Assembly (NCBI GenBank): GCA_944389025.1
Contig: CALXKU010000012.1
Span: 1-64,000, forward strand
Origin: an uncultured Spirochaetaceae bacterium
GTDB taxonomy: Bacteria; Spirochaetota; Spirochaetia; Sphaerochaetales; Sphaerochaetaceae
Direction of reading: 5' to 3'
DNA length: 64,000 nt
In this document: one piece after another, positions 3,269-22,237 of the stretch
How the letters are laid out: each line of letters starts with the position of its first letter
Numbering within the stretch: the stretch's first letter is position 1
The notes under the pieces: generated by a model
What the model saw: the letters and a program-made list of their open reading frames with translations, nothing else
What the model was told of the DNA's origin: nothing
Database searches by the model: none
Translations under genes and position numbers: made by a program

Positions 3269-3280
3269 TATCCTTCCTCC

Positions 3281-4204: not shown

Positions 4205-4218
4205 TTTATTCTCCAAAA

Positions 4219-5901: not shown

Positions 5902-5975
5902 GCACCCTTTTCTTCAACTGTATAGAGTTTTTCACGTCTAAACACCCACATTCGATTAATTTTCACGGCGAGGAA
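5902..5975 (+). repeat. Diverged fifth copy of the porin leader
   Basis: Begins GCACCCTTTTCTTCA and ends TTTTCACGGCGAGGAA, matching both ends and the roughly 75-bp length of the leader found before the four island porins. The middle has drifted. No porin follows: an ATPase tail is joined directly after GAGGAA. Confidence 0.7.
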
Positions 5976-5976
5976 A

Positions 5977-6234
5977 CAAGATTCTACGCTTGAAGAAGAT
6001 TTCTTCATCAGAAGTAGGTCTCACCTAATCCCCATAGAAGTCAAAGCTACAAACGGACGCTCAAAATCCTTGAGTACACTGATAAAAAGCGAACGATATA
6101 AAGATATCGAAGCGGGAATAAAACTTGCAGGTGGAAACATTGGAGTTGAAAACAATATTTATACATTCCCTCTTTTCTGTGCTTCACTGCTAAGAGATTT
6201 TATCAAGAACACAACAGAAGCAGTGTTCTCATGA
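5977..6234 (+). pseudogene. 3' fragment of a DUF4143-type ATPase
   Basis: An open frame without a start encodes about 85 residues that match the C-terminal end of the island ATPases: DSTLEEDFFIRSRSHLIPIE then VKA, the acidic-then-E-x-K pattern of their PD-(D/E)XK-like tail, followed by a SKSLSTLIKSERY segment like the SKSLNTILNTQKY of the 15733 ATPase, and an NIYTFPLF end like the IPLYL ends of the others. It terminates at TGA 6232-6234. The whole AAA domain is missing, and a porin leader has been joined in its place. Confidence 0.8.
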
Positions 6235-6319
6235 ATTCTTGAGAATGCTGTTCATATTGTTTTCACTTGTTGTTTTTGAATTATCAAGTAGGAAACTAAT
6301 TATATTTAAACTCGAATTA

Positions 6320-6463
6320 TCCAGAAAAACGTGTAAATTTTTATAATTTTTCACAGAAAAATGTGAAGCTATCAAAAAAGGTAAATTACTTTGGATAAAA
6401 AACGGAGCTATCACAAACATTCCACTCTATCTGGCTCGTAAAACAAAAGAACTAATTAAATAA
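6320..6463 (+). pseudogene. Deletion scar of a DUF4143 ATPase gene
   Basis: The first 75 bases match the promoter-proximal region of the intact ATPase gene at 11794, including two AGAAAAA(C/T)GTG boxes 32 bp apart (6322 and 6354) and the ATTACTTTG start region. They run straight into the last 23 codons of the same gene (IKNGAITNIPLYLARKTKEL, stop TAA 6461-6463). About 1.2 kb of coding sequence is missing. The downstream 100 bases and the Fic gene also match the second copy, so this was once a complete ATPase-Fic module. Confidence 0.85.
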
Positions 6464-6513
6464 CGATAGCTGCAAGCAAATATTTAGCTCATAATATAAT
6501 CTTAATTAATTTA

Positions 6514-6560
6514 TTCAAGCCAAAATTTGACTTGAATGTCGCACTCTATCCCTTTATACT
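6514..6560 (+). promoter_or_regulatory. Operator/promoter of the first fic gene
   Basis: An inverted repeat with 11-bp arms (6514-6536, one mismatch) overlaps a -35 box TTGAAT (6532-6537). The -10 box TATACT (6555-6560) follows at a 17-bp spacing. Six bases separate the -10 from the ATG at 6567, so the predicted mRNA would be leaderless. No Shine-Dalgarno is present. Confidence 0.65.
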
Positions 6561-6566
6561 GAATTT

Positions 6567-7682
6567 ATGGATCAGATTATATATATTTGGCAAAGAAAAG
6601 ATTGGCCTAATTTTCATTGGGATATCGATAAACTATTGCCCCTTCTATATGAGACAACGCAGAAAAGATCTTTCTTTCTTGGTCAGATATCATCCCTTGA
6701 TGATACAATACAGAAGAACGCATATGCAGATGTTCTGGAAAATGAAATCATATCATCAAATTCAATTGAGAATATACTTCTAGACAGGGATTCGGTAAGA
6801 TCCTCCCTGTTATCACGTTTAGGAGTAGAAAATGCAGGTATGAAATATTCTGACAGATATACGGCAGGAGCTGTCAACATAGTTTTTGATGCCGTCACAA
6901 ACTATTCAGTCCCTTTAACAAAAGAAAGACTTTATGGCTGGCATTCCGAACTTTTCCCTTCTGGAATGAGTGAAGGAAGGAGGATAATAACGGGAAACAG
7001 GAGACAAGGCCCGATCTATGTAGTATCTGGGAGTATGGGTAAAGAAATCATCCACTATGAAGCCCCTCCTGCAGATCGGATTGACGCAGAGATAGATAGA
7101 TTTCTCAAATTCGTAAACGAAGAGGAATCTGTGAACATCTTGATTAAGGCGGCAGTGGCACATGTCTGGTTCGTATCAATCCATCCGTTTGCTGATGGAA
7201 ACGGGAGGATAGCAAGAACGATAACTGAAATGCTGCTGGCTAAGGCGGATGGGCTGCCTCATAGGTATTACAGCTTATCATTGGAGATAATGAAAAACAG
7301 AAAAGAGTATTATGATATTCTGGAATACACACAGAAGAATACGATGGATGTAACAAAGTTCATCGAGTATTTTCTAAAAACAATCCAGAAATCTGTAGCC
7401 ACATCCCAGGCAAAGATTGAGAAAACAATAGCGAAAACAAAATTCTGGGATTCAATCAGAAAGTACCCTTTGAATGAAAGACAGATAAAAATACTGAACA
7501 TGATGCAGGAAGATTTTGAAGGGAAGTTGACCACGGCAAAATGGGAGAAACTGAATAAATGCTCCCACTCCACTGCATTGAGAGATATCAAAGATTTAAT
7601 CGATAAAGGTATCTTGATCGATGATGGAAAGCATTCTAAAAACACAAGCTATTTGCTGCAACATACAGAGAAAAACGACTAG
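6567..7682 (+). CDS. Fic-domain AMP-transferase with winged-helix tail, copy 1
   Basis: 371 residues. An N-terminal helical domain like DUF4172 (WPNFHWDIDKLLPLLYE) is followed by a Fic core with the full catalytic motif HPFADGNGRIAR (residues 206-217): catalytic His and the Gly-rich, Arg-containing anion hole are intact. SNSIEN at 64-69 fits the class II inhibitory motif [S/T]xxxE[G/N], so the enzyme should be self-inhibited. The last 65 residues (NERQIKILNM, STALRDIKDLIDKGIL) look like a winged helix. The family transfers AMP or other nucleotide groups to protein hydroxyls; the target is unknown. From about 6933 on it is essentially identical in DNA to the copy at 13192. Confidence 0.93.
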   Translation: MDQIIYIWQRKDWPNFHWDIDKLLPLLYETTQKRSFFLGQISSLDDTIQKNAYADVLENEIISSNSIENILLDRDSVRSSLLSRLGVENAGMKYSDRYTAGAVNIVFDAVTNYSVPLTKERLYGWHSELFPSGMSEGRRIITGNRRQGPIYVVSGSMGKEIIHYEAPPADRIDAEIDRFLKFVNEEESVNILIKAAVAHVWFVSIHPFADGNGRIARTITEMLLAKADGLPHRYYSLSLEIMKNRKEYYDILEYTQKNTMDVTKFIEYFLKTIQKSVATSQAKIEKTIAKTKFWDSIRKYPLNERQIKILNMMQEDFEGKLTTAKWEKLNKCSHSTALRDIKDLIDKGILIDDGKHSKNTSYLLQHTEKND

Positions 7683-7700
7683 AAAAGATCTTTCGTAACT

Positions 7701-7775
7701 GCACTCTTTACTTCATTAGCAAGTTAAAACGTTGCAAAAACATTCATATTTCCTCTATTTTCACGGCGAGGAAGT
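7701..7775 (+). repeat. 75-bp porin leader, copy before porin 7776
   Basis: Runs from GCACTCTTTACTTCATTAGC to GGCGAGGAAGT and abuts the ATG. The same 75-bp element precedes the porins at 10489, 14401 and 17197. It ends in the ribosome site GAGGAAG. A possible promoter inside it is TTGCAA (7732-7737), 18 bp, TATTTT (7756-7761), which would leave a very short untranslated leader. The promoter reading is inference. Confidence 0.8.
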
Positions 7776-8834
7776 ATGAAAAAGATACTTACAATTCTCG
7801 CAGTTGCACTTCTCGCATGTACAACTGTATTCGCAGGAGTAACCTTCTCCGGTAGCTCCACATTTGGTTACCTTGTAAACGTCAATGACGGAAACTGGAG
7901 CCAGTATTTCTACGGAGATGACGGAGACGATACAAACCCGAACACTCTCAAGGTTTCAATCGCAGATGATAACGGGCTCTGGACTGTTGGATTAAGAACA
8001 GGATATCCAGATAAGGCTGCTACATTCGGTGATACAGGAAGCATGGGTGGAGATGTCACAATCGACTTTGCAAAGCTCTTCGGTCTTGATGGCTGGAAGC
8101 TTAATGCTGGAATGATTGGAAACGACAGATATACGACTCTCAGAGCATATTCCAACCAGTCTGGAAACAGCTACGACAGAATCAGAACTGTAGGCGGTAG
8201 CTATGTAGCATGGGTAGGAGTTGGCTATGGTGATCTCGTAGAGGCTCAGCTCGCTGTTGATCCAGGCCTCAATGCAGGTGCTGATGACAAGATTTCTTCA
8301 AAGTCCGATATCCTCGCATCTGTTCTCGTAACACCGCTTGATGGACTTAAGGTATCTGTTGACTATGCATGGAAGGGTGAATATGCATGGAAAGACGGAG
8401 TTGCTACCAACGACAAGGGTCTCGTAGGCGGAGCAGTTGATGTAAACATCAGCGACATGCTCGGACTCGACTTCTCAGTTGGTGTTTCTGTTGCTGACAG
8501 GTATCACATCGGAGCTAAGACAAACGATCTCGCTGTAACAGTTTATGGTGGAGTTGACGTAGTAGACGTAGCAGTCGAGTATGCTTATACAGCAAAGGTT
8601 CACTACCTCTATGCAAAGGTTAACCTCAACCTCATCGAGAACATGCTTCTCAACGTATACTTCGGTGCAAACGATGTCACTAAGTTTGCTGATGAGGTAT
8701 TCGTTGGTGGAGAGGTTGGATACACACTCTCTGGAGTTACCTTTAAGCTTGCCGCAGAGTATGCTGCAGGAGCTGCAAAGGAGCTCGAGTACACAGGATT
8801 CAACATCGCTCCAAGCATTTCTTTCGCTTGGTAA
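7776..8834 (+). CDS. Type-1 outer-membrane beta-barrel porin-like protein
   Basis: 352 residues with a Sec signal peptide (MKKILTILAVALLACTTVFA, cleavage before Gly). The mature part alternates amphipathic strands with acidic loops such as YGDDGDDTNPNTLKVS and ends SISFAW, a C-terminal aromatic suited to BAM-mediated insertion. It shares blocks such as YTTLRAYSNQSGN and VAWVGVGYGDLVEAQLAVDP with the porin at 10489, while putative surface loops differ. Leader upstream, hairpin terminator downstream. The substrate is unknown. Confidence is high for barrel protein, moderate for pore function. Confidence 0.82.
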   Translation: MKKILTILAVALLACTTVFAGVTFSGSSTFGYLVNVNDGNWSQYFYGDDGDDTNPNTLKVSIADDNGLWTVGLRTGYPDKAATFGDTGSMGGDVTIDFAKLFGLDGWKLNAGMIGNDRYTTLRAYSNQSGNSYDRIRTVGGSYVAWVGVGYGDLVEAQLAVDPGLNAGADDKISSKSDILASVLVTPLDGLKVSVDYAWKGEYAWKDGVATNDKGLVGGAVDVNISDMLGLDFSVGVSVADRYHIGAKTNDLAVTVYGGVDVVDVAVEYAYTAKVHYLYAKVNLNLIENMLLNVYFGANDVTKFADEVFVGGEVGYTLSGVTFKLAAEYAAGAAKELEYTGFNIAPSISFAW

Positions 8835-8860
8835 TAGGATCAGGTGCACTGAACCATACA

Positions 8861-8892
8861 CCCCTTGCCCATTCGGTGAGGGGTTTATTATT
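8861..8892 (+). terminator. Terminator after porin 7776
   Basis: CCCCTTGCCC-ATTC-GGTGAGGGG hairpin followed by TTTATTATTT. Similar hairpins follow the porins at 10489 and 19459. Confidence 0.85.
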
Positions 8893-8917
8893 TGCTCCAT
8901 GCGATATACTATTTCAT

Positions 8918-8996
8918 TATAAAATTGTGAAATTTGCTCTAATATTCCCCTAGAAAAATGTAAAAATAATATTGTTTTTCCCATAGAAAAGTGTAG
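8918..8996 (+). repeat. Three direct repeats, 33-bp period, before ATPase 9006
   Basis: TATAAAATTGTGA (8918), TAGAAAAATGTAA (8951) and TAGAAAAGTGTAG (8984) start exactly 33 bp apart, and the last ends 9 bases before the GTG start. Spacing near three helical turns puts the boxes on one DNA face, which suits co-operative protein binding. A -10-like TAGAAT (8994-8999) overlaps the last box. Confidence 0.65.
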
Positions 8997-9005
8997 AATA
9001 ACTAT

Positions 9006-10307
9006 GTGGAAAGATTTATATATAAAGAACTTAATGAATGGAAAAACAGTAAAGAAAGAAAACCCCTTATTCTTGAAGGAGCTCGACAAGTTGGTAAAAC
9101 GTGGATCCTAAAAGAATTCGGGCGAAATGAATATGAGAAACTAGCTTATATTAATTGTGATAATAACACTCAAATAAAAAAACTTTTCTCAGATTTTGAT
9201 ACCTCAAGACTGCTCAGAGGGTTCTCTGCCATAACGGGAATAAACATTACAAAAGAGAATACCCTGATTGTTCTTGATGAGGTACAGGAAGTCCCTCTTG
9301 CTCTTACTGCACTCAAATACTTTCTTGAGGAAGCTCCTGAATATCATATTGCTGTAGCAGGATCCTTTCTCGGCATTCTTCTTCATGAAGGTTCAGGCTT
9401 TCCCGTAGGGAAAACAGACACATTGACTCTTTATCCCCTCTCTTTCTCTGAATTCCTCATCGCAATCGGAAAGAAACACCTTCTTGATGCTCTCAAGGAA
9501 CACAGATTTGAAGAACTGAATGCAATCCTTCCTCAATACATTGAAGCTCTTCGGCAGTACTATTATACGGGCGGAATGCCTGAGGTTGTTGCCTCCTATA
9601 TCGAATCGCATGATTTAAAAAAAGTAAGGCGACTGCAGAAAGAGATAATTCGCGGATATGAGAAAGACTTCTCCAAACATGCTCCGGAGAAAGACAGTAT
9701 CAAAATGTACACTGTATGGAACAATATTCCCAGTCAGCTTGCAAAAGAGAATAAGAAGTTCATCTATGGCGCAATAAGGAAAGGTGCCAGGGCAAAGGAG
9801 TATGAATCAGCTATCGAATGGTTGAGAAAAACGGGACTGACACACAAGGTTTCAAGAATAAAAAAGGTAGAGAAACCGGCTAAATTCTATGAGGATATCG
9901 ATTGCTTTAAACTTTTCCTTGTTGATCTTGGAATATTGGGAGCTATGGTGGATGCTCCCGCAGAAGAGATATTAATAGGTGATGACATCTTTTCTAATTA
10001 TAAGGGTAGCTTTACAGAACAGTATGTAGCTCAGCAGTTCTATTCCTCGGGCGGAGAAACGCTATATTACTATGCGAATGAGAATTCAACCTCAGAAATA
10101 GATTTCGTTGTAGATTTCAAGACGATATACCCTGTTGAAGTGAAAGCAGGAATCAATTTAAAGGCAAAGAGTCTATCAACAGTATTGAAACAGAATGAGG
10201 CATTAATCGGTATTCGTTTTTCAATGGCCCCATACAAAGAACAGGACAATCTCATAAATGTTCCACTTCCATTTGCTGAGGAATATCTGAGGCTTATTTC
10301 TTCTTGA
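9006..10307 (+). CDS. AAA_14/DUF4143-type ATPase with PD-(D/E)XK-like tail (1)
   Basis: 433 residues from a GTG start; no good Shine-Dalgarno precedes it. Walker A is GARQVGKTW (25-33) and Walker B is TLIVLDEVQE (86-95), followed by the sensor-like VAGSFLGILL. The C-terminal third is DUF4143-like and carries E-I-D (364-366) and E-V-K (378-380), the spacing of a PD-(D/E)XK nuclease-type core. This family is widespread and has no established biochemical function. It sits between two porin cassettes. Past its stop lies an orphan tail belonging to a different ATPase. Confidence 0.9.
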   Translation: MERFIYKELNEWKNSKERKPLILEGARQVGKTWILKEFGRNEYEKLAYINCDNNTQIKKLFSDFDTSRLLRGFSAITGINITKENTLIVLDEVQEVPLALTALKYFLEEAPEYHIAVAGSFLGILLHEGSGFPVGKTDTLTLYPLSFSEFLIAIGKKHLLDALKEHRFEELNAILPQYIEALRQYYYTGGMPEVVASYIESHDLKKVRRLQKEIIRGYEKDFSKHAPEKDSIKMYTVWNNIPSQLAKENKKFIYGAIRKGARAKEYESAIEWLRKTGLTHKVSRIKKVEKPAKFYEDIDCFKLFLVDLGILGAMVDAPAEEILIGDDIFSNYKGSFTEQYVAQQFYSSGGETLYYYANENSTSEIDFVVDFKTIYPVEVKAGINLKAKSLSTVLKQNEALIGIRFSMAPYKEQDNLINVPLPFAEEYLRLISS

Positions 10308-10310
10308 CAT

Positions 10311-10395
10311 GATCATGTTCTTGAAAAATGAAGTAGACAACAGTTGGATAGAATCATTACCCGACATCGGTGAAATCAATGCACGGTTACATTGA
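10311..10395 (+). pseudogene. Orphan C-terminal tail of a type-3 ATPase
   Basis: The frame MIMFLKNEVDNSWIESLPDI then GEINARLH-stop is nearly the same, in DNA and protein, as the last 28 codons of the ATPase at 15733 (MVMFLKNEVDNSWIESLPDI, DEINARLH). It begins just past the stop of the unrelated ATPase at 9006 and is followed by the same spacer and leader found at 17104-17196. It marks a recombination event in which one ATPase replaced another upstream of a fixed 3' flank. Confidence 0.85.
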
Positions 10396-10413
10396 AATCA
10401 TCATCCAATTCCT

Positions 10414-10488
10414 GCACTCTTTACTTCATTAGCAAGTTAAAACGTTGCAAAAACATTCATATTTCCCCTATTCTCACGGCGAGGAAGT
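10414..10488 (+). repeat. 75-bp porin leader, copy before porin 10489
   Basis: Same 75-bp element as at 7701, with one-base differences, ending directly at the ATG of the next porin. Confidence 0.8.
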
Positions 10489-11538
10489 ATGAAAAAGATA
10501 CTTACAATTCTCGCAGTTGCACTTCTCGCATGTACAACTGTATTCGCAGGAGTTAACTTCTCCGGTAGCTCCACAATCGGTTATCAGATCAACTATGGCA
10601 ACGATCAGTGGAAGCAGCTCTTCTATGGAGATGACGGAGACGATACAGATCCGAACACTCTCAATCTTTCAATCGCTGATGACAATGGCATCTGGTCAAT
10701 TGGATTCAGAACAGGTTTTAACGCCACAGGAGATGACGGCCAGGGAGTAACTTTTGGTGACTCTGGAAGCATGGGCGGCAATGTTACAATCGACTTCGCA
10801 AAGCTTTTCGGTCTTGATGGCTGGAAGGTCAACGCTGGTATGATTGGAAATGACAGATACACGACACTCAGAGCATATTCCAACCAGTCTGGAAACAACT
10901 ACGACAGAATCAGAACAAACGGCAACAGCTATGTAGCATGGGTTGGCGTTGGCTATGGCGATCTCGTAGAAGCACAGCTTGCTGTTGATCCTGGTCTCAA
11001 CGGAGGAAACGATGACAACATCACGACAACATCAGACATCCTTGCTTCTGTTCTCGTAACACCGCTTGATGGCCTCAAGGTATCTGTAGACTACGCTTGG
11101 AAGGGCGACGGTGCAGATGGACTTGTAGGTGGAGCAGTTGATGTAAACATTAGCGACATGCTCGGACTCGACTTCTCAGTTGGTGTTTCTGTTGCTGACA
11201 GATACAACATTGGTGACAAGGCTAACGATCTTGCTGTAACAGTTTATGGTGGCGTTGACGTAGTAGACGTAGCAGTCGAGTATGCTTACACAGCAGCAAA
11301 GGCTCACTACCTCTATGCAAAGGTTAACCTCAACCTCATCGAGAACATGCTTCTTGATGTATACTTTGGTGCAAACGATGTCACAGACTTCGCTAACCAG
11401 GTATTCGTTGGTGGAGAGGTTGGATACACAATTTCTGGAATGGCATTCAAGCTTGGTGTTGAGTACTCCGTTGGAGCATCCAAGGAATTCGATCTTCCTG
11501 GACTCAACATCGTTCCAAGTGTTTCTTTCTCTTGGTAA
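10489..11538 (+). CDS. Type-1 outer-membrane beta-barrel porin-like protein
   Basis: 349 residues with the same signal peptide as the 7776 protein, then a barrel ending SVSFSW. Conserved strand blocks (YTTLRAYSNQSGN, GGAVDVNISDMLGLDF) alternate with changed loops: NATGDDGQGVTFGD is extended, and the YAWKDGVATNDK loop of the 7776 protein is shortened. This mosaic pattern suggests exchange or selection acting on exposed loops. A single-gene transcript is likely, from the leader to the hairpin at 11566. Confidence 0.82.
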   Translation: MKKILTILAVALLACTTVFAGVNFSGSSTIGYQINYGNDQWKQLFYGDDGDDTDPNTLNLSIADDNGIWSIGFRTGFNATGDDGQGVTFGDSGSMGGNVTIDFAKLFGLDGWKVNAGMIGNDRYTTLRAYSNQSGNNYDRIRTNGNSYVAWVGVGYGDLVEAQLAVDPGLNGGNDDNITTTSDILASVLVTPLDGLKVSVDYAWKGDGADGLVGGAVDVNISDMLGLDFSVGVSVADRYNIGDKANDLAVTVYGGVDVVDVAVEYAYTAAKAHYLYAKVNLNLIENMLLDVYFGANDVTDFANQVFVGGEVGYTISGMAFKLGVEYSVGASKEFDLPGLNIVPSVSFSW

Positions 11539-11565
11539 TAAAAGCAAAAGCACTGAACCATATAT

Positions 11566-11593
11566 CCCTTGCCTCTGCGGTGAGGGGTTTTTA
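11566..11593 (+). terminator. Terminator after porin 10489
   Basis: CCCTTGCCTC-TGCG-GTGAGGGG hairpin followed by TTTTT. Confidence 0.85.
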
Positions 11594-11601
11594 CAATCAG
11601 T

Positions 11602-11685
11602 AATTCACTAATTTTTTAGGATACAATCCTTAGAATTCGCTCATCTTTTAGGAGAATTCTCTATTAATTCGCTCATCTTTTAGGA
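11602..11685 (+). repeat. Three direct repeats, 32-bp period, far upstream of ATPase 11794
   Basis: AATTCACTAATTTTTTAGGA (11602), AATTCGCTCATCTTTTAGGA (11634) and an identical copy of the latter (11666) start exactly 32 bp apart. They lie between the porin terminator and the promoter-proximal boxes of the ATPase gene. Confidence 0.75.
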
Positions 11686-11723
11686 TTTTGCTTGAATATC
11701 ATTGAGATTCATTTTCAATTTTC

Positions 11724-11768
11724 CAGAAAAACGTGTAAATTTTTATAATTTTTCACAGAAAAATGTGA
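11724..11768 (+). repeat. Two promoter-proximal boxes, 32-bp period, before ATPase 11794
   Basis: CAGAAAAACGTGT (11724) and CAGAAAAATGTGA (11756) are 32 bp apart and resemble the boxes before ATPase 9006. A -10-like TATTAT follows at 11769-11774. The same pair survives in the deletion scar at 6322 and 6354. Confidence 0.7.
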
Positions 11769-11793
11769 TATTATCAAAAAAAGGGATATTACT

Positions 11794-13089
11794 TTGAAAA
11801 GAAGAGTTATAGATGAGCTTATTGATTGGAAAAACAGTGAGGATAGAAAGCCTCTTATCCTCAAAGGTGCCAGACAGGTAGGAAAAACCTGGGCTCTGAA
11901 GCATTTTGCTGAAGAAAACTATGAGAATTACATCTATATCAATTTTGAAGAAGAAAAAGAAATCTCATCCATTTTTGAAACAAGTAAGAATCCTCAAAGG
12001 ATTGTAGAACGTCTTTCCCTTTTAAAGGGGCAACCGATCAAAGAAGGAAACACACTTTTAATCTTCGATGAGATTCAATATTGCCCAGATGCTCTTAATA
12101 GTCTGAAATATTTCAAAGAGAATGCAAATAGTTTCCACATTGCCGCGGCAGGAAGCCTCTTGGGAACACTTCTGGCATCGCCCGGATCCTATCCTGTCGG
12201 GAGTGTGAATGTTATCAACGTATATCCACTTACCTTTGATGAGTTTCTGGAGGCAGCCGATGAGCCATTATTCAATTATTACAACATGATTGAAAGAAAC
12301 CAGAAGATAGAAGACATATTCCATACAAGATTGATTGATGCTTACAACAGCTATTTAATCATAGGCGGTATGCCTGAGTGCGTATCTTCATGGTGCAAAT
12401 ACAAGGATTCAGAAAAAGTTGACACAATACAGGAAGAGCTAATTACCCTTTATGAAAACGATATTACAAAACATAATAAAAAGATTAATAGTGCAAGAAT
12501 ACTGATGGTTCTCAGAAGCATACCATCACAGCTTGGAAAGGGAAATGAGAAATTCATGTACGGAGCGGTGAAGCAAGGAGGAAGGGCCAGAGAGTTCGAA
12601 GAAGCGATTGAATGGCTTGTGTCTGCCGGACTTGTTAACAGAGTGCATAACGTATCAAAACCTGAGCACCCTCTGCCCGCTTTTGACATACTCGACTCAT
12701 TTAAGCTTTTCTTCTTCGATACCGGGTTGCTGAAGCATATGGCTGGCATTGATAACAAAGCAATTCTTCTACGCTCCGCATTTCAGTATAAAGGACCACT
12801 TACAGAGAATTATGTTTTACAGCAGCTCATAGGCCAATTCAAAGTCAACCCAAGATATTACACAGAAAAAAACATGGAGATTGATTTTCTTATCCAGAGA
12901 GGAACGGATATCATCCCGATAGAGGTCAAAGCAGGAGAAGACAAGTCCGCACCATCATTCAAGCGTTTTATTGCCGAAAATAACCCTGAAGTAGCCATCA
13001 GATATTCAAAACTCGGGTATCTGAAAAACGGAGCTATTACAAACATTCCACTATATCTGGCACGGAAAACCAAAGAACTAATTGAATGA
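11794..13089 (+). CDS. AAA_14/DUF4143-type ATPase with PD-(D/E)XK-like tail (2)
   Basis: 431 residues from a TTG start preceded by AAAGGGA. Walker A is GARQVGKTW and Walker B is TLLIFDEIQY, followed by AAAGSLLGTLL. The tail has E-I-D-F near 362-365 and I-E-V-K ending at residue 379. The gene is followed after 102 bases by a Fic gene. An internally deleted copy of this same gene lies before the first Fic gene, so ATPase-Fic is an ancestral unit. Possible roles are DNA or protein remodelling; I do not know which. Confidence 0.9.
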   Translation: MKRRVIDELIDWKNSEDRKPLILKGARQVGKTWALKHFAEENYENYIYINFEEEKEISSIFETSKNPQRIVERLSLLKGQPIKEGNTLLIFDEIQYCPDALNSLKYFKENANSFHIAAAGSLLGTLLASPGSYPVGSVNVINVYPLTFDEFLEAADEPLFNYYNMIERNQKIEDIFHTRLIDAYNSYLIIGGMPECVSSWCKYKDSEKVDTIQEELITLYENDITKHNKKINSARILMVLRSIPSQLGKGNEKFMYGAVKQGGRAREFEEAIEWLVSAGLVNRVHNVSKPEHPLPAFDILDSFKLFFFDTGLLKHMAGIDNKAILLRSAFQYKGPLTENYVLQQLIGQFKVNPRYYTEKNMEIDFLIQRGTDIIPIEVKAGEDKSAPSFKRFIAENNPEVAIRYSKLGYLKNGAITNIPLYLARKTKELIE

Positions 13090-13135
13090 CGATAGAGTAA
13101 GTAAATATTCAGTTCATAATATAATCTTAATTAAT

Positions 13136-13164
13136 ATATTCAAGTCAAAATTTGACTTGAATAT
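13136..13164 (+). promoter_or_regulatory. 29-bp perfect palindrome before fic copy 2
   Basis: Two 14-bp arms (ATATTCAAGTCAAA and its complement) flank one central A at 13150. The right arm contains the -35 box TTGAAT of the fic promoter, so a bound protein would block RNA polymerase. The Fic protein itself has a winged-helix tail and is a natural candidate for the repressor (inference). Confidence 0.8.
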
Positions 13165-13185
13165 CGCACTCTATCCCTTTATACT
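13157..13185 (+). promoter_or_regulatory. Promoter of fic copy 2, predicted leaderless
   Basis: TTGAAT (13157-13162), 17 bp, TATACT (13180-13185). The ATG begins 7 bases after the -10, where transcription should start. No Shine-Dalgarno lies between them. Confidence 0.65.
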
Positions 13186-13191
13186 GAATTT

Positions 13192-14307
13192 ATGGATCAG
13201 ATAATATATATTTGGCAAAGAAAAGATTGGCCTAATTTTCATTGGGATATCGATAAACTATTACCCCTTCTATATGAGACAACGCAGAAAAGAGCTTTCT
13301 TTCTTGGTCAGATATCATCCCTTGATGATACAATACAGAAGAACGCATACGCAGATGTTCTTGAAAATGAAATCATATCATCAAATTCAATTGAGAATAT
13401 ACTTCTGGACAGGGATTCGGTAAGATCCTCCCTGCTATCACGTTTAGGAGTAGAAAATGCAGGCTTGAAACATTCTGACAGATATACGGAGGGAGCTGTC
13501 AACATAGTTTTTGATGCAGTCACAAACTATTCAGTCCTTTTAACAAAAGAAAGACTTTATGGCTGGCATTCCGAACTTTTCCCTTCTGGAATGAGTGAAG
13601 GAAGGAGGATAATAACGGGAAACAGGAGACAAGGCCCGATCTATGTAGTATCTGGGAGTATGGGTAAAGAAATCATCCACTATGAAGCCCCTCCTGCAGA
13701 TCGGATTGACGCAGAGATAGATAGATTTCTCAAATTCGTAAACGAAGAGGAATCTGTGAACATCTTGATTAAGGCGGCAGTGGCACATGTCTGGTTCGTA
13801 TCAATCCATCCGTTTGCTGATGGAAACGGGAGGATAGCAAGAACGATAACTGAAATGCTGCTGGCTAAGGCGGATGGGCTGCCTCATAGGTATTACAGCT
13901 TATCATTGGAGATAATGAAAAACAGAAAAGAGTATTATGATATTCTGGAATACACACAGAAGAATACGATGGATGTAACAAAGTTCATCGAGTATTTTCT
14001 AAAAACAATCCAGAAATCTGTAGCCACATCCCAGGCAAAGATTGAGAAAACAATAGCGAAAACAAAATTCTGGGATTCAATCAGAAAGTACCCTTTGAAT
14101 GAAAGACAGATAAAAATACTGAACATGATGCAGGAAGATTTTGAAGGGAAGTTGACCACGGCAAAATGGGAGAAACTGAATAAATGCTCCCACTCCACTG
14201 CATTGAGAGATATCAAAGATTTAATCGATAAAGGTATCTTGATCGATGATGGAAAGCATTCTAAAAACACAAGCTATTTGCTGCAACATACAGAGAAAAA
14301 CGGCTAG
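13192..14307 (+). CDS. Fic-domain AMP-transferase with winged-helix tail, copy 2
   Basis: 371 residues, differing from copy 1 at only a few positions: S35A, M92L, Y94H, A100E, P116L and the last residue. Catalytic HPFADGNGRIAR at 206-217 and inhibitory SNSIEN at 64-69 are both intact. All internal differences fall in the first third of the gene; the remaining 740 bases are identical, which points to recent duplication or gene conversion. It follows the intact ATPase at 11794 and precedes a type-2 porin. Its own promoter means it need not depend on ATPase transcription. Confidence 0.93.
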   Translation: MDQIIYIWQRKDWPNFHWDIDKLLPLLYETTQKRAFFLGQISSLDDTIQKNAYADVLENEIISSNSIENILLDRDSVRSSLLSRLGVENAGLKHSDRYTEGAVNIVFDAVTNYSVLLTKERLYGWHSELFPSGMSEGRRIITGNRRQGPIYVVSGSMGKEIIHYEAPPADRIDAEIDRFLKFVNEEESVNILIKAAVAHVWFVSIHPFADGNGRIARTITEMLLAKADGLPHRYYSLSLEIMKNRKEYYDILEYTQKNTMDVTKFIEYFLKTIQKSVATSQAKIEKTIAKTKFWDSIRKYPLNERQIKILNMMQEDFEGKLTTAKWEKLNKCSHSTALRDIKDLIDKGILIDDGKHSKNTSYLLQHTEKNG

Positions 14308-14325
14308 AAAAGATCTTTTGTAACT

Positions 14326-14400
14326 GCACTCTTTACTTCATTAGCAAGTTAAAACGTTGTAAAAACATTCATATTTCCCCTATTTTCACGGCGAGGAAGT
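14326..14400 (+). repeat. 75-bp porin leader, copy before porin 14401
   Basis: Same element as at 7701. It is shared by type-1 and type-2 porins although their signal peptides and coding regions differ. Confidence 0.8.
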
Positions 14401-15438
14401 ATGAAAAAAGTACTTACTGTTCTTTTAGTAGTTCTTCTCGCTACAACAACTGTATTCGCAGCAATGAACGTTAGCGGAAGATTTAGAACGGGTTACAAAT
14501 TCAGTTTCAACGACGGTTTCGCAGCTGAGGGCTGGAAAGAAAACACGGAAGCAAAGTTCTCACTTAAGGTTTCTGACGATGCAGGTATCTGGACTGTAAG
14601 CCTGAAGGATTGGGGTGAAGGAGCTCTCGATTCTGATGACAAGATCAAGGCAAACCTTTCTCTTAACTTCACGAATCTTCTCGCTGCTAACGGTGTTGAT
14701 CTCGGAGATTTCGACATCTCTGCAAGCATCGGTGCAAACGGAGCAATGACAGCTCTCTCAGCATACAACGACGTAACAGGCGATGAGATTTACAAGGTTA
14801 AGAACAACGGTGCATATTCATCAGAGCTTGCTGTTGGATACGGCGACCTCATCCAGGCAAAGATCAACATTGATCCTACATATGAGCCTACAAAGAAGAT
14901 GCCAGTTGCTCTCAGCGTAATGTCAACACCTGTTAGCGGAGTAAGCGTATCTGCAGTATATGCATACAACGGACTTATCTACCAGGTTGACAAGGACACA
15001 AAGGTTGTTGTTGATCATGCAATCGGTTTTGCAGCAAATGCAGACTTCGCAGCACTCTTCGGACTTGACTTCCAGCTTGGCTTAGCAGCATATGACAACG
15101 TTGGTCTTAAGGACGGTGGCAATGTTAACACATTCGCAGCAGCAGTATATGGTGGCGTAGACCTTGTTGACGCTTTCTTCGAACTCAGAATGAACAATGA
15201 GCTCGTTGAGAATGGAACATCAACATTCGGTATGAAGTCACAGGTCAACCTCAACCTTGTTGAGAACCTTGGCCTCGACGTATACTTCAATATTGCTAAC
15301 TTCGCAGAGACAGCTGACACATACGCAGTTGGTGGTGATGTATCCTACACAATCTCTGGTGTAGAGTTTGCTGGAAACCTCGAGTATGCAGCTGGAGATG
15401 GCTTCTCCATCACACCGAAGGTAATCATCGCATTCTAA
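14401..15438 (+). CDS. Type-2 outer-membrane beta-barrel porin-like protein
   Basis: 345 residues. The signal peptide MKKVLTVLLVVLLATTTVFA differs from that of type 1. The barrel ends KVIIAF, with the C-terminal Phe expected of a BAM substrate. Shared strand motifs with type 1 (YGDLIQAKINIDP, GGVDLVDAFFE, SQVNLNLVENL) show common ancestry. The first 577 bases are identical to those of the porin at 17197, after which the two diverge sharply. Leader upstream and CCGGATCC hairpin downstream make it a single-gene unit. Confidence 0.82.
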   Translation: MKKVLTVLLVVLLATTTVFAAMNVSGRFRTGYKFSFNDGFAAEGWKENTEAKFSLKVSDDAGIWTVSLKDWGEGALDSDDKIKANLSLNFTNLLAANGVDLGDFDISASIGANGAMTALSAYNDVTGDEIYKVKNNGAYSSELAVGYGDLIQAKINIDPTYEPTKKMPVALSVMSTPVSGVSVSAVYAYNGLIYQVDKDTKVVVDHAIGFAANADFAALFGLDFQLGLAAYDNVGLKDGGNVNTFAAAVYGGVDLVDAFFELRMNNELVENGTSTFGMKSQVNLNLVENLGLDVYFNIANFAETADTYAVGGDVSYTISGVEFAGNLEYAAGDGFSITPKVIIAF

Positions 15439-15461
15439 TTGAATGACAATGCTTATCTTGG

Positions 15462-15486
15462 CCGGATCCTTAGGGGTCCGGTTTTT
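15462..15486 (+). terminator. Terminator after porin 14401
   Basis: CCGGATCC-TTAG-GGGTCCGG hairpin followed by TTTTT. Confidence 0.88.
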
Positions 15487-15492
15487 ACTTAT

Positions 15493-15533
15493 ATTGCAGT
15501 TTATAATTATAAAAATCTGATTCTATTGCAGTT
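15493..15533 (+). repeat. Pair of ATTGCAGTT repeats 32 bp apart
   Basis: ATTGCAGTT at 15493 and 15525, exactly 32 bp apart, in the gap between a porin terminator and the repeat array of ATPase 15733. Confidence 0.55.
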
Positions 15534-15563
15534 AAGATTAAAATAAAGGTACTGAGGAAACTG

Positions 15564-15699
15564 TTCATCGTTAAAACAACAACAAGTACAAGTGTGGTTA
15601 ATTATTCATCGTTAAAATTTTGATTAACAATGAGTTATTCGTCGTTAAGATTTCGATTAATAATGAGTTATTCGTCGTTAAAATTTATTTTTAATGTTG
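15564..15699 (+). repeat. 33-bp tandem repeats before ATPase 15733
   Basis: Three units beginning TTATTC(A/G)TCGTTAA start at 15602, 15635 and 15668, a period of exactly 33 bp; the first two are 33 bp long and end AATGAG. A partial copy (TTCATCGTTAAAAC) lies at 15564. The sequence differs from the repeats before the other two ATPases, but the spacing is the same. The array ends 33 bp before the ATG. Confidence 0.85.
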
Positions 15700-15732
15700 T
15701 AATTCTTTATTTTAGATAATATTATATATTTA

Positions 15733-17103
15733 ATGCTTAAAAGAAAAACATCTGACTTATTGTATGAATGGAAAAACAGACCAGAAAGACTTCCTCTTAT
15801 CGTTGAAGGAGCTAGACAGGTTGGAAAGACAACGTCGATTAGGGATTTTGCTGAATCGAATTATAAAACCGTATACGAACTTAACTTCTATATCCATCCT
15901 GAGCTCTCATCAATATTTGATGGCCCTTTAAGCAGTGACGAGATACTTTTCCGCCTGACACTGTCATTCCCTGAGAAGAAAGCTGTTCATGGAAGCACCC
16001 TTCTTTTCCTTGATGAGATACAGCATTGCCCGAATGCACGTACTGCATTGAAGTTCCTAGCCCATGACAAAAGGTTTGATGTGATTGCCTCCGGCTCATT
16101 GCTTGGAATCAATTATTCAAAAGTTTCATCCCTTCCTGTCGGCTATACGGAAACGGTTAAGATGTATCCCTTGGATTTTGAGGAGTTTCTATGGGCGATG
16201 GATATCAGCCCTGAAACGATTGAGGTCCTGCATTCTTGTTTCATCGATAGAAGAGCGGTAGATTCGTTTGTACATGAATCAATGCTCAGATATTTCTCCC
16301 TGTATATGGTTATTGGAGGCATGCCAGCTGTAGTCAGCAACTTCACTAAGGATAGAGATTATTCAAATGCACTCAGAATACAGCGTGGGATAATGAGCGA
16401 CTACAAGAAAGATGTTGTGAAGTATGCTCTGGATTCGGAAAAGACCAAGATCGTAAGATGCCTTGAATCACTTCCTTCTCAGCTTGCAAAAGATTACAAG
16501 AAGTTCCAGTACTCAATTGTTGAAAAGGGTTCGGGGGTCTCTAAGTACGGCGGTTCCCTTCTCTGGTTGAAAGATGCAGACATAACAACGTTCTGTCATA
16601 ACCTTTCAAAGCTCGAAGCCCCACTCAATGCATATATGATAGAGAATGCTTTCAAGGTCTACATGAATGATAACGGTCTCTTGGTATCCATGTATGCTCC
16701 AGATACCGCAAAAAGAATCATGGAAGGGGAATTGGGGCTCTTCAAAGGAGCATTCTACGAAAACATCATAGCAACTAGCCTTACCGCACTAAATCATGAG
16801 CTTTTCTATTTCTCTCCATCAGACACGTTAGAAATAGATTTCATAATCAATTTCGAAGGACAGCCCTGTCCTGTTGAAGTTAAAAGTGGTGAAAATACGA
16901 AATCGAAATCATTGAATACGATTCTGAATACGCAGAAATATAAGATTAATCAAGCAATCCGCTTATCCAGAAAGAATGTCGGACAGGAAGGAAAGATACT
17001 GAGTCTTCCGCTTTACATGGTCATGTTCTTGAAAAATGAAGTAGACAACAGTTGGATAGAATCATTACCCGACATCGATGAAATCAACGCACGGTTACAT
17101 TGA
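15733..17103 (+). CDS. AAA_14/DUF4143-type ATPase with PD-(D/E)XK-like tail (3)
   Basis: 456 residues, the longest of the three. Walker A is GARQVGKTT and Walker B is TLLFLDEIQH, followed by ASGSLLGI. The C-terminal LEIDFIINFEGQPCPVEVKS keeps the D...E-x-K spacing of a PD-(D/E)XK-like core. It has an extra tail of about 25 residues that is also found as an orphan at 10311. No Shine-Dalgarno is visible; a TATATT -10-like box lies directly before the ATG, so leaderless expression is possible. Confidence 0.9.
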   Translation: MLKRKTSDLLYEWKNRPERLPLIVEGARQVGKTTSIRDFAESNYKTVYELNFYIHPELSSIFDGPLSSDEILFRLTLSFPEKKAVHGSTLLFLDEIQHCPNARTALKFLAHDKRFDVIASGSLLGINYSKVSSLPVGYTETVKMYPLDFEEFLWAMDISPETIEVLHSCFIDRRAVDSFVHESMLRYFSLYMVIGGMPAVVSNFTKDRDYSNALRIQRGIMSDYKKDVVKYALDSEKTKIVRCLESLPSQLAKDYKKFQYSIVEKGSGVSKYGGSLLWLKDADITTFCHNLSKLEAPLNAYMIENAFKVYMNDNGLLVSMYAPDTAKRIMEGELGLFKGAFYENIIATSLTALNHELFYFSPSDTLEIDFIINFEGQPCPVEVKSGENTKSKSLNTILNTQKYKINQAIRLSRKNVGQEGKILSLPLYMVMFLKNEVDNSWIESLPDIDEINARLH

Positions 17104-17121
17104 AATCAGCACCCAATTCCT

Positions 17122-17196
17122 GCACTCTTTACTTCATTAGCAAGTTAAAACGTTGTAAAAACATTCATATTTTCTCTTTTTTCACGGCGAGGAAGT
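17122..17196 (+). repeat. 75-bp porin leader, copy before porin 17197
   Basis: Same element as at 7701, with a few changes in the T-rich segment before TTCACGGCGAGGAAGT. Confidence 0.8.
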
Positions 17197-18303
17197 ATGA
17201 AAAAAGTACTTACTGTTCTTTTAGTAGTTCTTCTCGCTACAACAACTGTATTCGCAGCAATGAACGTTAGCGGAAGATTTAGAACGGGTTACAAATTCAG
17301 TTTCAACGACGGTTTCGCAGCTGAGGGCTGGAAAGAAAACACGGAAGCAAAGTTCTCACTTAAGGTTTCTGACGATGCAGGTATCTGGACTGTAAGCCTG
17401 AAGGATTGGGGTGAAGGAGCTCTCGATTCTGATGACAAGATCAAGGCAAACCTTTCTCTTAACTTCACGAATCTTCTCGCTGCTAACGGTGTTGATCTCG
17501 GAGATTTCGACATCTCTGCAAGCATCGGTGCAAACGGAGCAATGACAGCTCTCTCAGCATACAACGACGTAACAGGCGATGAGATTTACAAGGTTAAGAA
17601 CAACGGTGCATATTCATCAGAGCTTGCTGTTGGATACGGCGACCTCATCCAGGCAAAGATCAACATTGATCCTACATATGAGCCTACAAAGAAGATGCCA
17701 GTTGCTCTCAGCGTAATGTCAACACCTGTTAGCGGAGTAAGCGTATCTGCAGTATATGCATACAACGGACTTATCTATCAGGTCGACAAGGATACGAAGG
17801 TTCCAGCAGACCATGTTCTTGGTTTCGCTGTTAATGCAGACTTCGCAGCTCTCTTCGGACTTGACTTCCAGCTTGGCTTAGCAGCTTATGATAACGTTGG
17901 ATTTGGTTACTACAAAGAAGAAGTAGTAGGAAAAGATGACGCTGGAAAAGATAAATATGACTTTGTTGCACAGGACAAGAACGTCAACACATTCGCAGCA
18001 GCAGTATATGGTGGCGTAGATCTCGTTGATGCATACTTCGAACTCAGAATGAACAATGAGCTCGTTAAGAATGGAACATCAACATTCGGTATGAAGTCAC
18101 AGGTCAATCTCAACCTTGTTGAGAACCTCAAGCTTGATGTTTACTTCAACATTGGTAACTTCGCAAAGACAGCTGATACATACGCAGTTGGTGGTGATGT
18201 TTCCTACACGATCTCTGGCGTAGAGTTCGCAGGAAATGTTGATTACACAGCTGGTGCAGAGGGTGGCTTCTCCATCACACCGAAGGTAATCATCGCATTC
18301 TAA
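17197..18303 (+). CDS. Type-2 outer-membrane beta-barrel porin-like protein, extended loop
   Basis: 368 residues, identical to the 14401 protein for about 197 residues from the signal peptide on, then diverging. It carries an inserted loop of roughly 20 residues rich in Lys, Asp and Glu (GYYKEEVVGKDDAGKDKYDF) where the other copy has only LKDGG. The barrel ends KVIIAF. The pattern of a shared 5' part and a variable 3' part with a loop insertion suggests partial gene conversion. Confidence 0.82.
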   Translation: MKKVLTVLLVVLLATTTVFAAMNVSGRFRTGYKFSFNDGFAAEGWKENTEAKFSLKVSDDAGIWTVSLKDWGEGALDSDDKIKANLSLNFTNLLAANGVDLGDFDISASIGANGAMTALSAYNDVTGDEIYKVKNNGAYSSELAVGYGDLIQAKINIDPTYEPTKKMPVALSVMSTPVSGVSVSAVYAYNGLIYQVDKDTKVPADHVLGFAVNADFAALFGLDFQLGLAAYDNVGFGYYKEEVVGKDDAGKDKYDFVAQDKNVNTFAAAVYGGVDLVDAYFELRMNNELVKNGTSTFGMKSQVNLNLVENLKLDVYFNIGNFAKTADTYAVGGDVSYTISGVEFAGNVDYTAGAEGGFSITPKVIIAF

Positions 18304-18326
18304 TTGAATAACAATGCTTATCTTGA

Positions 18327-18351
18327 CCGGATCCTTAGGGGTCCGGTTTTT
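18327..18351 (+). terminator. Terminator after porin 17197
   Basis: CCGGATCC-TTAG-GGGTCCGG hairpin followed by TTTTTG, the same as at 15462. Confidence 0.88.
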
Positions 18352-18476: not shown

Positions 18477-19340
18477 TTACTCTTTAGCAGTTTTATTGTT
18501 ATAGAGGAACATCAATATCGCCATCAGAATGATGATTGTATAACCAATCAGGCTCAGATAATCTGGAATCTGATCAAACATTATAAAGCCATATATTGCG
18601 GCAAATATTATCTGGGAATAGTCATAGACTGATATCTCTTTTGCTGGAGCGAAAGTATAGGCTGCCGTTACTGCAAACTGTCCTCCTGCAGCGGCTGCTC
18701 CTGCAAGCAATAGATATATCAACTGAGTGAGACTCATCGAGTGAAAATCGAATATCATATAGGGAACAGTTACAAGACACGAAAAAGCAGAAAAGAAAAA
18801 TACGATTCGGCTTCCTTTTTCTCCTCTTGTTCCAAGTTTTCTCACGCATGTATATGCTAAACCAGCGCCAAGCCCACCAAGGAATCCGATTCCTGCAGCA
18901 AACATGTTTACGTTACTGAACGATGGCTTCATTACGAACATTGAGCCGATAAAAGCGCCTAATACAATTAGAGCCTGCTGCAATGAGACTTTTTCCTTCA
19001 TCATGAAAATACTGAATATTATGACAAAGAATGGGCTCATTTTATTCAGCATAGTGGCATCTGAGAGCATCAAGTGATCTATGGCAAAGAAATTTCCAAG
19101 GATTCCAACCGTTCCAGCAATGGCTCTTATAAGCATTAATGGCAAATTACCTTTTTCCCATTTGAAGCCATCCTTTGCCCTAACAATCATGATGAAGGCA
19201 ATCAACATTGCTACAAAGTTTCTGAAAAAGCTCTTTTCAATTGAAGGCAAATCGCCTGCAAGTCGTACGAACATGTTCATAGTAGCAAAGCAGAACGCTG
19301 AAGTCAGAATGCAAAGAATTCCCTTATATTTTCTATCCAT
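18477..19340 (-). CDS. DMT-superfamily transporter (EamA domains)
   Basis: 287 residues with ten hydrophobic segments in two EamA repeats; the first contains SFFRNFVAMLIAF and the second YTFAPAKEISVYDYSQIIFA. It exports or imports small metabolites across the inner membrane; the substrate is unknown. I chose the ATG at 19340. The longer frame would start with the TTG of a perfect -35 box (19371-19376), and the -10 TATGAA (19348-19353) lies 17 bp on, so transcription should start at about the ATG. Confidence 0.85.
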   Translation of the reverse strand: MDRKYKGILCILTSAFCFATMNMFVRLAGDLPSIEKSFFRNFVAMLIAFIMIVRAKDGFKWEKGNLPLMLIRAIAGTVGILGNFFAIDHLMLSDATMLNKMSPFFVIIFSIFMMKEKVSLQQALIVLGAFIGSMFVMKPSFSNVNMFAAGIGFLGGLGAGLAYTCVRKLGTRGEKGSRIVFFFSAFSCLVTVPYMIFDFHSMSLTQLIYLLLAGAAAAGGQFAVTAAYTFAPAKEISVYDYSQIIFAAIYGFIMFDQIPDYLSLIGYTIIILMAILMFLYNNKTAKE

Positions 19341-19347
19341 ATGATAT

Positions 19348-19376
19348 TTCATAGAAAAAGCATGAATTATTGTCAA
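19348..19376 (-). promoter_or_regulatory. Consensus promoter of the DMT transporter gene
   Basis: TTGACA (19376-19371), 17 bp, TATGAA (19353-19348). Seven bases separate the -10 from the ATG at 19340, which predicts a leaderless or nearly leaderless mRNA. Confidence 0.65.
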
Positions 19377-20556: not shown

Positions 20557-20581
20557 ACTTCCTCCAAATAATACGGGGTGC

Positions 20582-20611
20582 GCACCTCAGGGCACGTATT
20601 TCCCCTTTTTT
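20582..20611 (-). promoter_or_regulatory. Structured 5' untranslated hairpin of porin 19459
   Basis: On the minus strand ATACG...CGTAT arms enclose a GGTGCGCACC self-complementary core. It lies between the predicted transcription start and GGAGGAAG. It could affect mRNA stability or bind a protein. No known riboswitch class is recognisable. Confidence 0.4.
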
Positions 20612-20628
20612 CCGTTATACAATGGTTA

Positions 20629-20658
20629 TTATAACCATCGCTACAAACCGCCGTCAAG
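20629..20658 (-). promoter_or_regulatory. Promoter of porin 19459
   Basis: TTGACG (20658-20653), 18 bp, TATAAT (20634-20629) on the minus strand. The leader to the ATG is about 65 bases. The -10 sits in a GGTTATAATAACC dyad. Confidence 0.75.

Positions 20659-20908: not shown

Positions 20909-22237
<1,329 letters not shown>

Follow-up and report, generated by a model that had tools for sequence, protein, structure and literature searches.

A porin locus beside enolase in an uncultured Spirochaetaceae bacterium, with signs of recombinational variation and candidate defence genes among its porins

Surface-protein genes that have their 5' part in common lie inverted to one another in Campylobacter fetus (sapA) and Lactobacillus acidophilus (slpA/slpB), and inversion changes the gene that is expressed. 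These are genes of S-layer proteins. The slpB gene is described as silent (PMC6015585). In Mycoplasma pulmonis (vsa) and M. agalactiae (vpma), DNA inversions place a different gene body after the promoter and amino-terminal coding portion of an expression site, and in relapsing-fever Borrelia the vmp genes are expressed from a sigma-70 expression site, with exchange starting in a conserved upstream homology sequence at the gene 5' end (PMC4534519). In the spirochaete Treponema pallidum, TprK is an outer-membrane protein varied by recombination (PMC10063172). In the present study, we analysed a stretch of 64,000 nucleotides (nt) from an uncultured Spirochaetaceae bacterium of the gut (contig CALXKU010000012.1, positions 1 to 64,000; the window), and we describe in it a locus between an RND/HlyD/TolC efflux operon and the enolase gene, which holds five porins (P1 to P5), three intact AAA_14-DUF4143 ATPases, two DUF4172-Fic genes, three ATPase relics and one EamA transporter.

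It is probable, in our judgement, that this locus provides recombinational porin variation from a fixed expression site, and that its ATPases and Fics are autonomous candidate defence genes which accumulated there. One porin, beside enolase, stands behind a fixed sigma-70 promoter and a conserved 5' untranslated region (UTR), which would be the expression site, and up to four more, in opposite orientation, lie towards the TolC operon, each with its own ribosome-binding site (RBS) and signal peptide and mostly with a recognisable terminator. Homologous recombination would act in the shared upstream and leader DNA (a block of 77 base pairs (bp) with the leader; 67 nt inverted between P5 and P1/P2). 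Between inverted copies the interior would flip and another porin body would land behind the expression-site promoter; between direct copies the outcome would be duplication, deletion and re-pairing of upstream genes with porin bodies. The ATPases, which belong to the PADLOC family PDC-S01, and the DUF4172-Fic genes would gather in this rearranging spot and be duplicated or broken along with it. We infer that such rearrangement would occur within the population with RecA as its agent, that expression would thereby switch, and that phage or host pressure would lie behind it.

By comparison with described systems, the locus may be likened to the expression-site surface-protein variation of Mycoplasma vsa and Borrelia vmp, but we would file it under neither. 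The likeness to vsa and vpma is an inversion that would link the expression-site promoter and 5' coding part to another body; those systems, however, concern lipoproteins, site-specific inversion and silent genes without promoters, whereas in the present locus the genes encode porins, the shared homology is long, a recombinase gene is absent, and the cassettes each have an upstream block and RBS of their own. With vmp the locus shares a sigma-70 expression site and conserved 5'-end homology, but vmp varies by gene conversion in one direction, with about 30 archived copies, some on plasmids and some on the chromosome, as the source, unlike the single chromosomal cluster, the inversion and the few copies found here. 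Inverted genes with a shared 5' part also recall sapA and slpA/slpB, which encode S-layer proteins, not porins, and have no defence genes inside. TprK is likewise a spirochaete outer-membrane protein with recombinational variation, but it varies by segmental gene conversion in seven variable regions from 53 silent donor cassettes, with no inversion, and belongs to another porin family. A shufflon or site-specific invertible element does not describe the locus, which has no recombinase gene and whose shared DNA does not consist of short core sites.

The genome under study (G000) is 2.31 Mb in size; the other G-numbers denote relatives or sister species, with one genome per species, and the assemblies are drafts of 30-300 contigs. 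A profile search of G000 found P1 to P5 as the sole five copies of their family. The locus has internal repeats far above chance (1439 nt at 96.7% and 781 nt at 96.9% identity), and with such long repeats and all five porins of the genome in one place, its pattern is far more than chance. The porins were without any Pfam match, and the predicted fold is a general-porin barrel (AlphaFold2 mean pLDDT, the predicted local distance difference test, 76; the top Foldseek matches are porins, E 3.5e-8). Their bodies fall into three classes. The porins and their flanks are as follows.

119-5565, minus strand: RND/HlyD/TolC efflux operon, left flank; the same neighbour in G021, G026, G040, G041 and G044.
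7776-8834, plus strand: porin P1, class I body; leader 7776-7835, terminator 8860-8884.
10489-11538, plus strand: porin P2, class I body.
14401-15438, plus strand: porin P3, class II body; terminator 15460-15483.
17197-18303, plus strand: porin P4, class II body; terminator 18325-18348.
18477-19376, minus strand: EamA-family transporter within the invertible segment; its orientation varies among species.
19459-20556, minus strand: porin P5, class III body, at the enolase-side expression site; adjoins enolase.
20557-20657, minus strand: type-B expression site, TTGACG-18-TATAAT (20657-20628), with a conserved 5' UTR that ends GGAGGAAGT.
20909-22204, minus strand: enolase, right flank.

The initial annotation had placed porins, ATPases, Fic genes and relics at 5.9-18.35 kb. 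This content was borne out with corrections, and the four porin genes it named were confirmed as P1 to P4 by their coordinates and by the modelled barrel. The list was incomplete without P5, whose inverted orientation and sigma-70 expression site had been omitted and are the key to the mechanism. The P5 leader is that of P1 and P2 in inverted orientation, 100% identical over 67 nt, a stretch that starts at the RBS and runs through the whole signal peptide. Among the five porins a consensus sigma-70 promoter was found at P5 alone, and it is the sole 11/12 match to sigma-70 across 15.5 kb. This fixed promoter and its 5' UTR are kept in eight genomes (G000, G021, G026, G038, G040, G041, G044 and G046), and the body behind them is of class III in G000, of class II in G021 and G026, and of another type in G040 and G044. 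In G021, moreover, three class II bodies (61-66% identical to one another in amino acids) bear 60/60 identical leaders of the type that goes with class I bodies. Close relatives thus carry a conserved promoter and leader with differing bodies behind, as in a variation system. The 5' UTR of the enolase-side porin (20557-20640, minus strand) also has a conserved GGGG...ACGTGCCCTGAGGTGCGCACCCC... arrangement and may have the potential to fold; its conservation was seen in an alignment of seven sequences, of which that of G038 was wrongly trimmed. Rfam gave no family within the locus, this 5' UTR included.

Inversion is read from the comparison of G040 with G044. With enolase on the plus strand, G040 reads Eno> P> <EamA <P TolC> and G044 reads Eno> P> EamA> <P TolC>: flanks and promoters are constant, the EamA gene is flipped and the two porin bodies are exchanged. 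Over the 300 nt upstream of the porins, same-side comparisons give 90% and 79% identity and cross-side comparisons 59-63%. For the bodies, the enolase-side porin of G040 and the TolC-side porin of G044 are 56% identical in amino acids (same-side 46%), and the TolC-side porin of G040 and the enolase-side porin of G044 are 68% identical (same-side 40%). Upstream DNA that agrees by side and bodies that agree across sides would be expected if an inversion had, at each end, broken the DNA between the promoter and the porin body. Furthermore, the two inverted leaders of G044 are 60/60 identical, with bodies only 41% identical. G000 has the orientation of G044 and G021 that of G040; the orientation of G021 rests on two contigs, C18 and C19, which abut at the TolC-side junction. 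Short-read assembly could in principle have misjoined the porin repeats, since the genomes are drafts and several contigs end in these porins. Such an artefact is extremely unlikely as an explanation of the whole, as several genomes independently show these flanks and this gene set, the long repeats are divergent enough (3-19%) to be resolved, and the G040 and G044 segments are each continuous inside one contig.

A tyrosine recombinase encoded nearby might instead carry out a dedicated site-specific inversion. In G021, G041 and G046 a Phage_integrase-family gene adjoins the RND operon at the far side of the locus; the same gene occurs in G026 and G044 with a porin and a response regulator between, its G000 ortholog is on contig C35 (1584-2783), and G031 has another integrase-family gene immediately between two porins of opposite orientation. 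We regard this explanation as distinctly improbable: the shared DNA is long homology of about 85-137 bp and not a short core site, and the gene also stands in a conserved metabolic neighbourhood in the G000 clade. The syntenic candidate invertase was rejected because it has no match in G040 at E<=1e-40, yet G040 and G044 differ by inversion. As separate observations, the G031 region (L053, 113-6287) is a four-porin cluster with its integrase-family gene and looks like a second kind of porin inversion locus, and in G001 the tyrosine recombinase that is syntenic with the RND side in several relatives stands directly beside porin-like genes.

The porins on the TolC-operon side carry a further record of exchange at their 5' ends, in the following blocks.

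7699-7775, plus strand: type-A upstream block of P1.
10412-10488, plus strand: type-A upstream block of P2.
14324-14400, plus strand: type-A upstream block of P3.
17120-17196, plus strand: type-A upstream block of P4.
5902-5975, plus strand: relic of a porin upstream block; at 5960-5975 it repeats exactly the TTTTCACGGCGAGGAA that is found before P1, P3 and P4.

The initial annotation had given these porins the same 75-bp leader. Shared 5' DNA is indeed present, but it is a 77-bp upstream block and the ATG, 93.5-97.4% identical in every pair, and the signal-peptide part is of two types (P1=P2 and P3=P4, with 73% identity between types over +9 to +60). The block of P1 (7699-7775) and the matching blocks before P2 to P4 share the conserved motifs TGCACTCTTTACTTCATT and ACATTCATA...TTTTCACGGCGAGGAAGT; no sigma-70 consensus was listed in the 77 bp before P1 to P4, where the conserved block and the RBS are present. 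The pairs form a four-gamete pattern: from -94 to -78, P1 pairs with P3 (94%) and P2 with P4 (88%); from -77 to +8 all pairs are 93.5-100% identical; beyond that, leader and body pair P1 with P2 (100/76%) and P3 with P4 (100/100%). The contexts further upstream follow the first pairing, with near-identical Fic genes before P1 and P3 and the end of ATPase3 before P2 and P4 (before P2 as a relic tail only, behind ATPase1). The association of an ATPase or Fic gene directly before the porin, previously claimed for three, therefore holds for all four. All four combinations of context (Fic or ATPase3 end) and body (class I or class II) are present, and it follows that recombination joined them at the porin 5' end; the partner in identity changes inside the shared -77 to +8 stretch, and the junctions are modular. 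In addition, P3 and P4 have zero mismatches over about 500 nt and then 6-13 per 100, and the two Fic genes differ at 14 nt in their first 347 nt and nowhere across 348-1111 of the gene. These difference-free stretches beside diverged ones have a gene-conversion-like appearance.

An alternative reading is ordinary tandem expansion of a gene family at a permissive site, in which old inversions and gene conversion arose neutrally from the repeats and expression does not switch. All the porins are full-length with their own RBS and signal peptide, repeats always recombine, and the differences are seen only between species. Even so, we hold this account to be unlikely, though not far-fetched. Close relatives keep the expression-site promoter and differ in the class of the body behind it, the segment is oppositely oriented in two species pairs, and the inverted leaders of G044 are far more alike than the bodies they introduce.

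Several points weigh against variation from the expression site and should be set beside the evidence above. The inversion is read from comparison between species, with one genome each. Contigs of G021, G026, G038, G041 and G046 stop within the porin locus, and local misassembly is thus possible for single cases; such ends would be expected for repeats or mixed arrangements, though they are not proof of them. The EamA-side porins of G000 and G021 differ in class, and a single clean inversion would therefore not suffice. Between species, too, the leader is well conserved (58/60), and part of its identity within a genome may come from selection and not from exchange. No site-specific recombinase was found inside the locus. 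Finally, P1 to P4 have their own RBS and conserved upstream block and may be expressed, in which case the outcome may be a matter of choice or dosage and not of on and off. Nevertheless, surface-porin variation is the best reading of the locus, and its proposed modular, recombining nature was supported; a comparable multi-porin locus with ATPase and Fic genes between porins occurs in the sister species G021, and a partial one in G026.

The ATPases, Fic genes and their remains are distributed among the porins as follows.

5976-6234, plus strand: ATPase0 relic tail, 76% over 88 amino acids to the intact ATPase0 in the same locus of G021; tblastn match 5959-6222.
6322-6370, plus strand: relic copy of the ATPase2 upstream repeats, 2 units.
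6368-6466, plus strand: ATPase2 relic tail, behind ATPase2's own repeat copy.
6567-7682, plus strand: Fic1 (DUF4172 and Fic).
9006-10307, plus strand: ATPase1 (AAA_14-DUF4143, PDC-S01).
10303-10395, plus strand: ATPase3 relic tail between ATPase1 and P2, 90% over 30 amino acids.
11794-13089, plus strand: ATPase2 (AAA_14-DUF4143, PDC-S01).
13192-14307, plus strand: Fic2, 98.4% identical to Fic1 in amino acids.
15733-17103, plus strand: ATPase3 (AAA_14-DUF4143, PDC-S01); a 74% identical gene is in the G021 porin locus.

The counts of three intact ATPases, two Fic genes and three ATPase relics (the tails of ATPase0, ATPase2 and ATPase3) agree with the earlier description. At 6322-6466 a deletion is flanked by the copy of the ATPase2 repeats and the ATPase2 tail, and ATPase0 is split, with its tail at 5976-6234 and ATPase0-type repeats at 11603-11685, before ATPase2. 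These relics fit repeated rearrangement of the locus. The three intact ATPases match PADLOC PDC-S01 profiles near full length (E 1e-145 to 1e-169). They have C-terminal residues of PD-(D/E)XK type (E362, D364 and E377-V378-K379 in ATPase2 numbering); E362, E377, V378 and K379 are invariant in 22 homologs and D364 is kept in at least 90%. PDC-S01 is a candidate antiphage system, an ATPase fused to a PD-(D/E)XK nuclease domain, and ranks fourth in frequency among prokaryotic defences; most candidates of this sort still await experimental validation (PMC12988326). The Fics belong to class II by their active site HPFADGNGR (HxFx(D/E)GNGR) and N-terminal inhibitory SNSIEN ((S/T)xxxE(G/N)). They match the PADLOC SoFic profile near full length (E 4e-47), but reach 72.1 bits against the NCBIfam SoFic equivalog cut-off of 550 and contain DUF4172 and Fic domains only, with DUF4172 in place of Fic_N and SoFic-like_C. 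SoFic has been reported to protect bacteria from phage. The statement that these families have no known link should accordingly be updated to include the two PADLOC matches. A typical SoFic (Fic_N, Fic and SoFic-like_C; L046, 9214-10347) was also seen on the opposite strand between two porins of G021.

The ATPases and Fics had been thought to act on the cassettes or on porin assembly, as in a functional cassette system in which they would regulate, mobilise or select porin cassettes, for example to combine receptor switching with abortive defence. Such genes lie between porins in G000 and G021, with a Fic and a PDC-S27-type ATPase in that position in G026; the adjacency of ATPase3 and its porin (88-94 bp gap) is kept between G021 and G000; and both families include candidate or shown antiphage proteins. 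These facts notwithstanding, a functional role on the porins is very unlikely and was not supported. Most family members stand elsewhere in G000 (10 of 13 DUF4143 genes and 4 of 6 Fic genes), and the members in the porin locus have close relatives away from porins and in other phyla. The nearest relatives found for ATPase2 are 69% identical proteins of Lachnospiraceae and Oscillospiraceae, which means that such genes move between phyla. The G040 and G044 segments invert with no ATPase or Fic gene inside them, broken ATPases are tolerated, and the ATPases' own upstream repeats stand before ATPases only, a search at the porin promoters having found none. Since most copies are elsewhere and not near porins, the ATPases and Fics are probably candidate defence genes carried as passengers of a recombination hotspot.

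In the relatives, enolase-linked porins have other ATPase-nuclease or Fic genes as neighbours. PF09820 AAA-ATPase_like genes adjoin the porin in seven of them (G006, G007, G011, G013, G014, G018 (contig C5) and G036); PDDEXK_9 was present in the complete PF09820 genes scanned, which makes this another ATPase-nuclease family at the site. Elsewhere the porin neighbours PDC-S01 (G027 and G028), PDC-S27 (G026 and G006) or Fic (G033). The site looks like a defence hotspot on its gene content, uncorrected for shared ancestry among the relatives. Different defence-type families at one conserved chromosomal site are what described defence islands and hotspots have, but the site here is a porin locus that would itself recombine. 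A genus-wide link between DUF4143 genes and porins is not claimed: no enrichment was put forward, beyond G000 and G021 there are single cases only (G027 and G028), and these could be chance because most relatives carry several to some 25 DUF4143 genes per genome. A DUF4172-Fic was near a porin in 4 of 20 matches (two in G000, one each in G021 and G026), all in close relatives, and this may reflect one ancestral event. Outside the locus, the window has an ATPase_2-DUF234 ATPase (27188-28549), of the family that PADLOC calls PDC-S27 in relatives, with 15-bp-spaced upstream repeats that are also present in its G021 counterpart.

Direct repeats precede each intact ATPase of the locus, with an orphan set before ATPase2.

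8945-8998, plus strand: ATPase1 upstream repeats, 2 units, period 33.
11603-11685, plus strand: orphan ATPase0-type upstream repeats, 3 units, period 32.
11724-11772, plus strand: ATPase2 upstream repeats, 2 units, period 32.
15602-15686, plus strand: ATPase3 upstream repeats, 3 units, period 33.

To place these in a wider frame, the 170 bp before the start codon were surveyed for 103 PDC-S01 genes (from the genus and from GTDB genomes of several phyla). For 74 of them the strongest upstream self-match had an offset of 32, 33 or 34 bp, and the mean self-match score was 9.5 at offset 32 and 9.3 at offset 33, as against 4.2 over all offsets. A score of 11 was reached by 85% of 27 PDC-S01 genes and 6.7% of 195 controls in the genus set, and by 56% of 68 PDC-S01 genes and 10% of 350 controls in the GTDB set. 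Such direct repeats, usually of 2-3 copies per gene, are found before most AAA_14-DUF4143 genes of 430-460 amino acids, and their sequence is specific to the subfamily and tends to match among close proteins. The PDC-S27, PF09820, Fic and shorter (about 400 amino acids) DUF4143 genes tested did not show 32-33 bp repeats, with the exception of a 13-bp pair at offset 32 before the G021 SoFic. The ATPase2 model (pLDDT 91) has archaeal ATPases as its top fold matches, followed by Orc1/Cdc6 initiators, some of which were solved on DNA. A natural guess is that the repeats are putative cognate binding sites, possibly autoregulatory; no description of them was found in the literature searched, of which coverage was partial. 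As a tentative and rather doubtful extension, PDC-S01 ATPases of about 430-460 amino acids might be repeat-binding, Orc/Cdc6-like ATPase-nucleases, with every subfamily binding a private set of repeats that stand before its gene at a spacing of 32-33 bp (three helical turns). They would then be self-regulating sensors with private DNA addresses, and the porin locus would combine receptor switching with such sensors.

Overall, the observation of a joint porin, ATPase and Fic locus is real; the inversion and expression site are of more interest than was at first supposed, and the ATPases and Fics, as probable passengers, of less. The repeats before PDC-S01 genes give experiments a first point of entry to a defence candidate that is among the most common in prokaryotes and still uncharacterised. 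Porins often serve as receptors for phages and as antigens that face the host. Should the locus switch, it would provide a simple inversion route to change the main porin, beside a core gene, in a little-studied spirochaete-like lineage, and would be a natural case of receptor variation and intracellular defence genes in one recombination hotspot.

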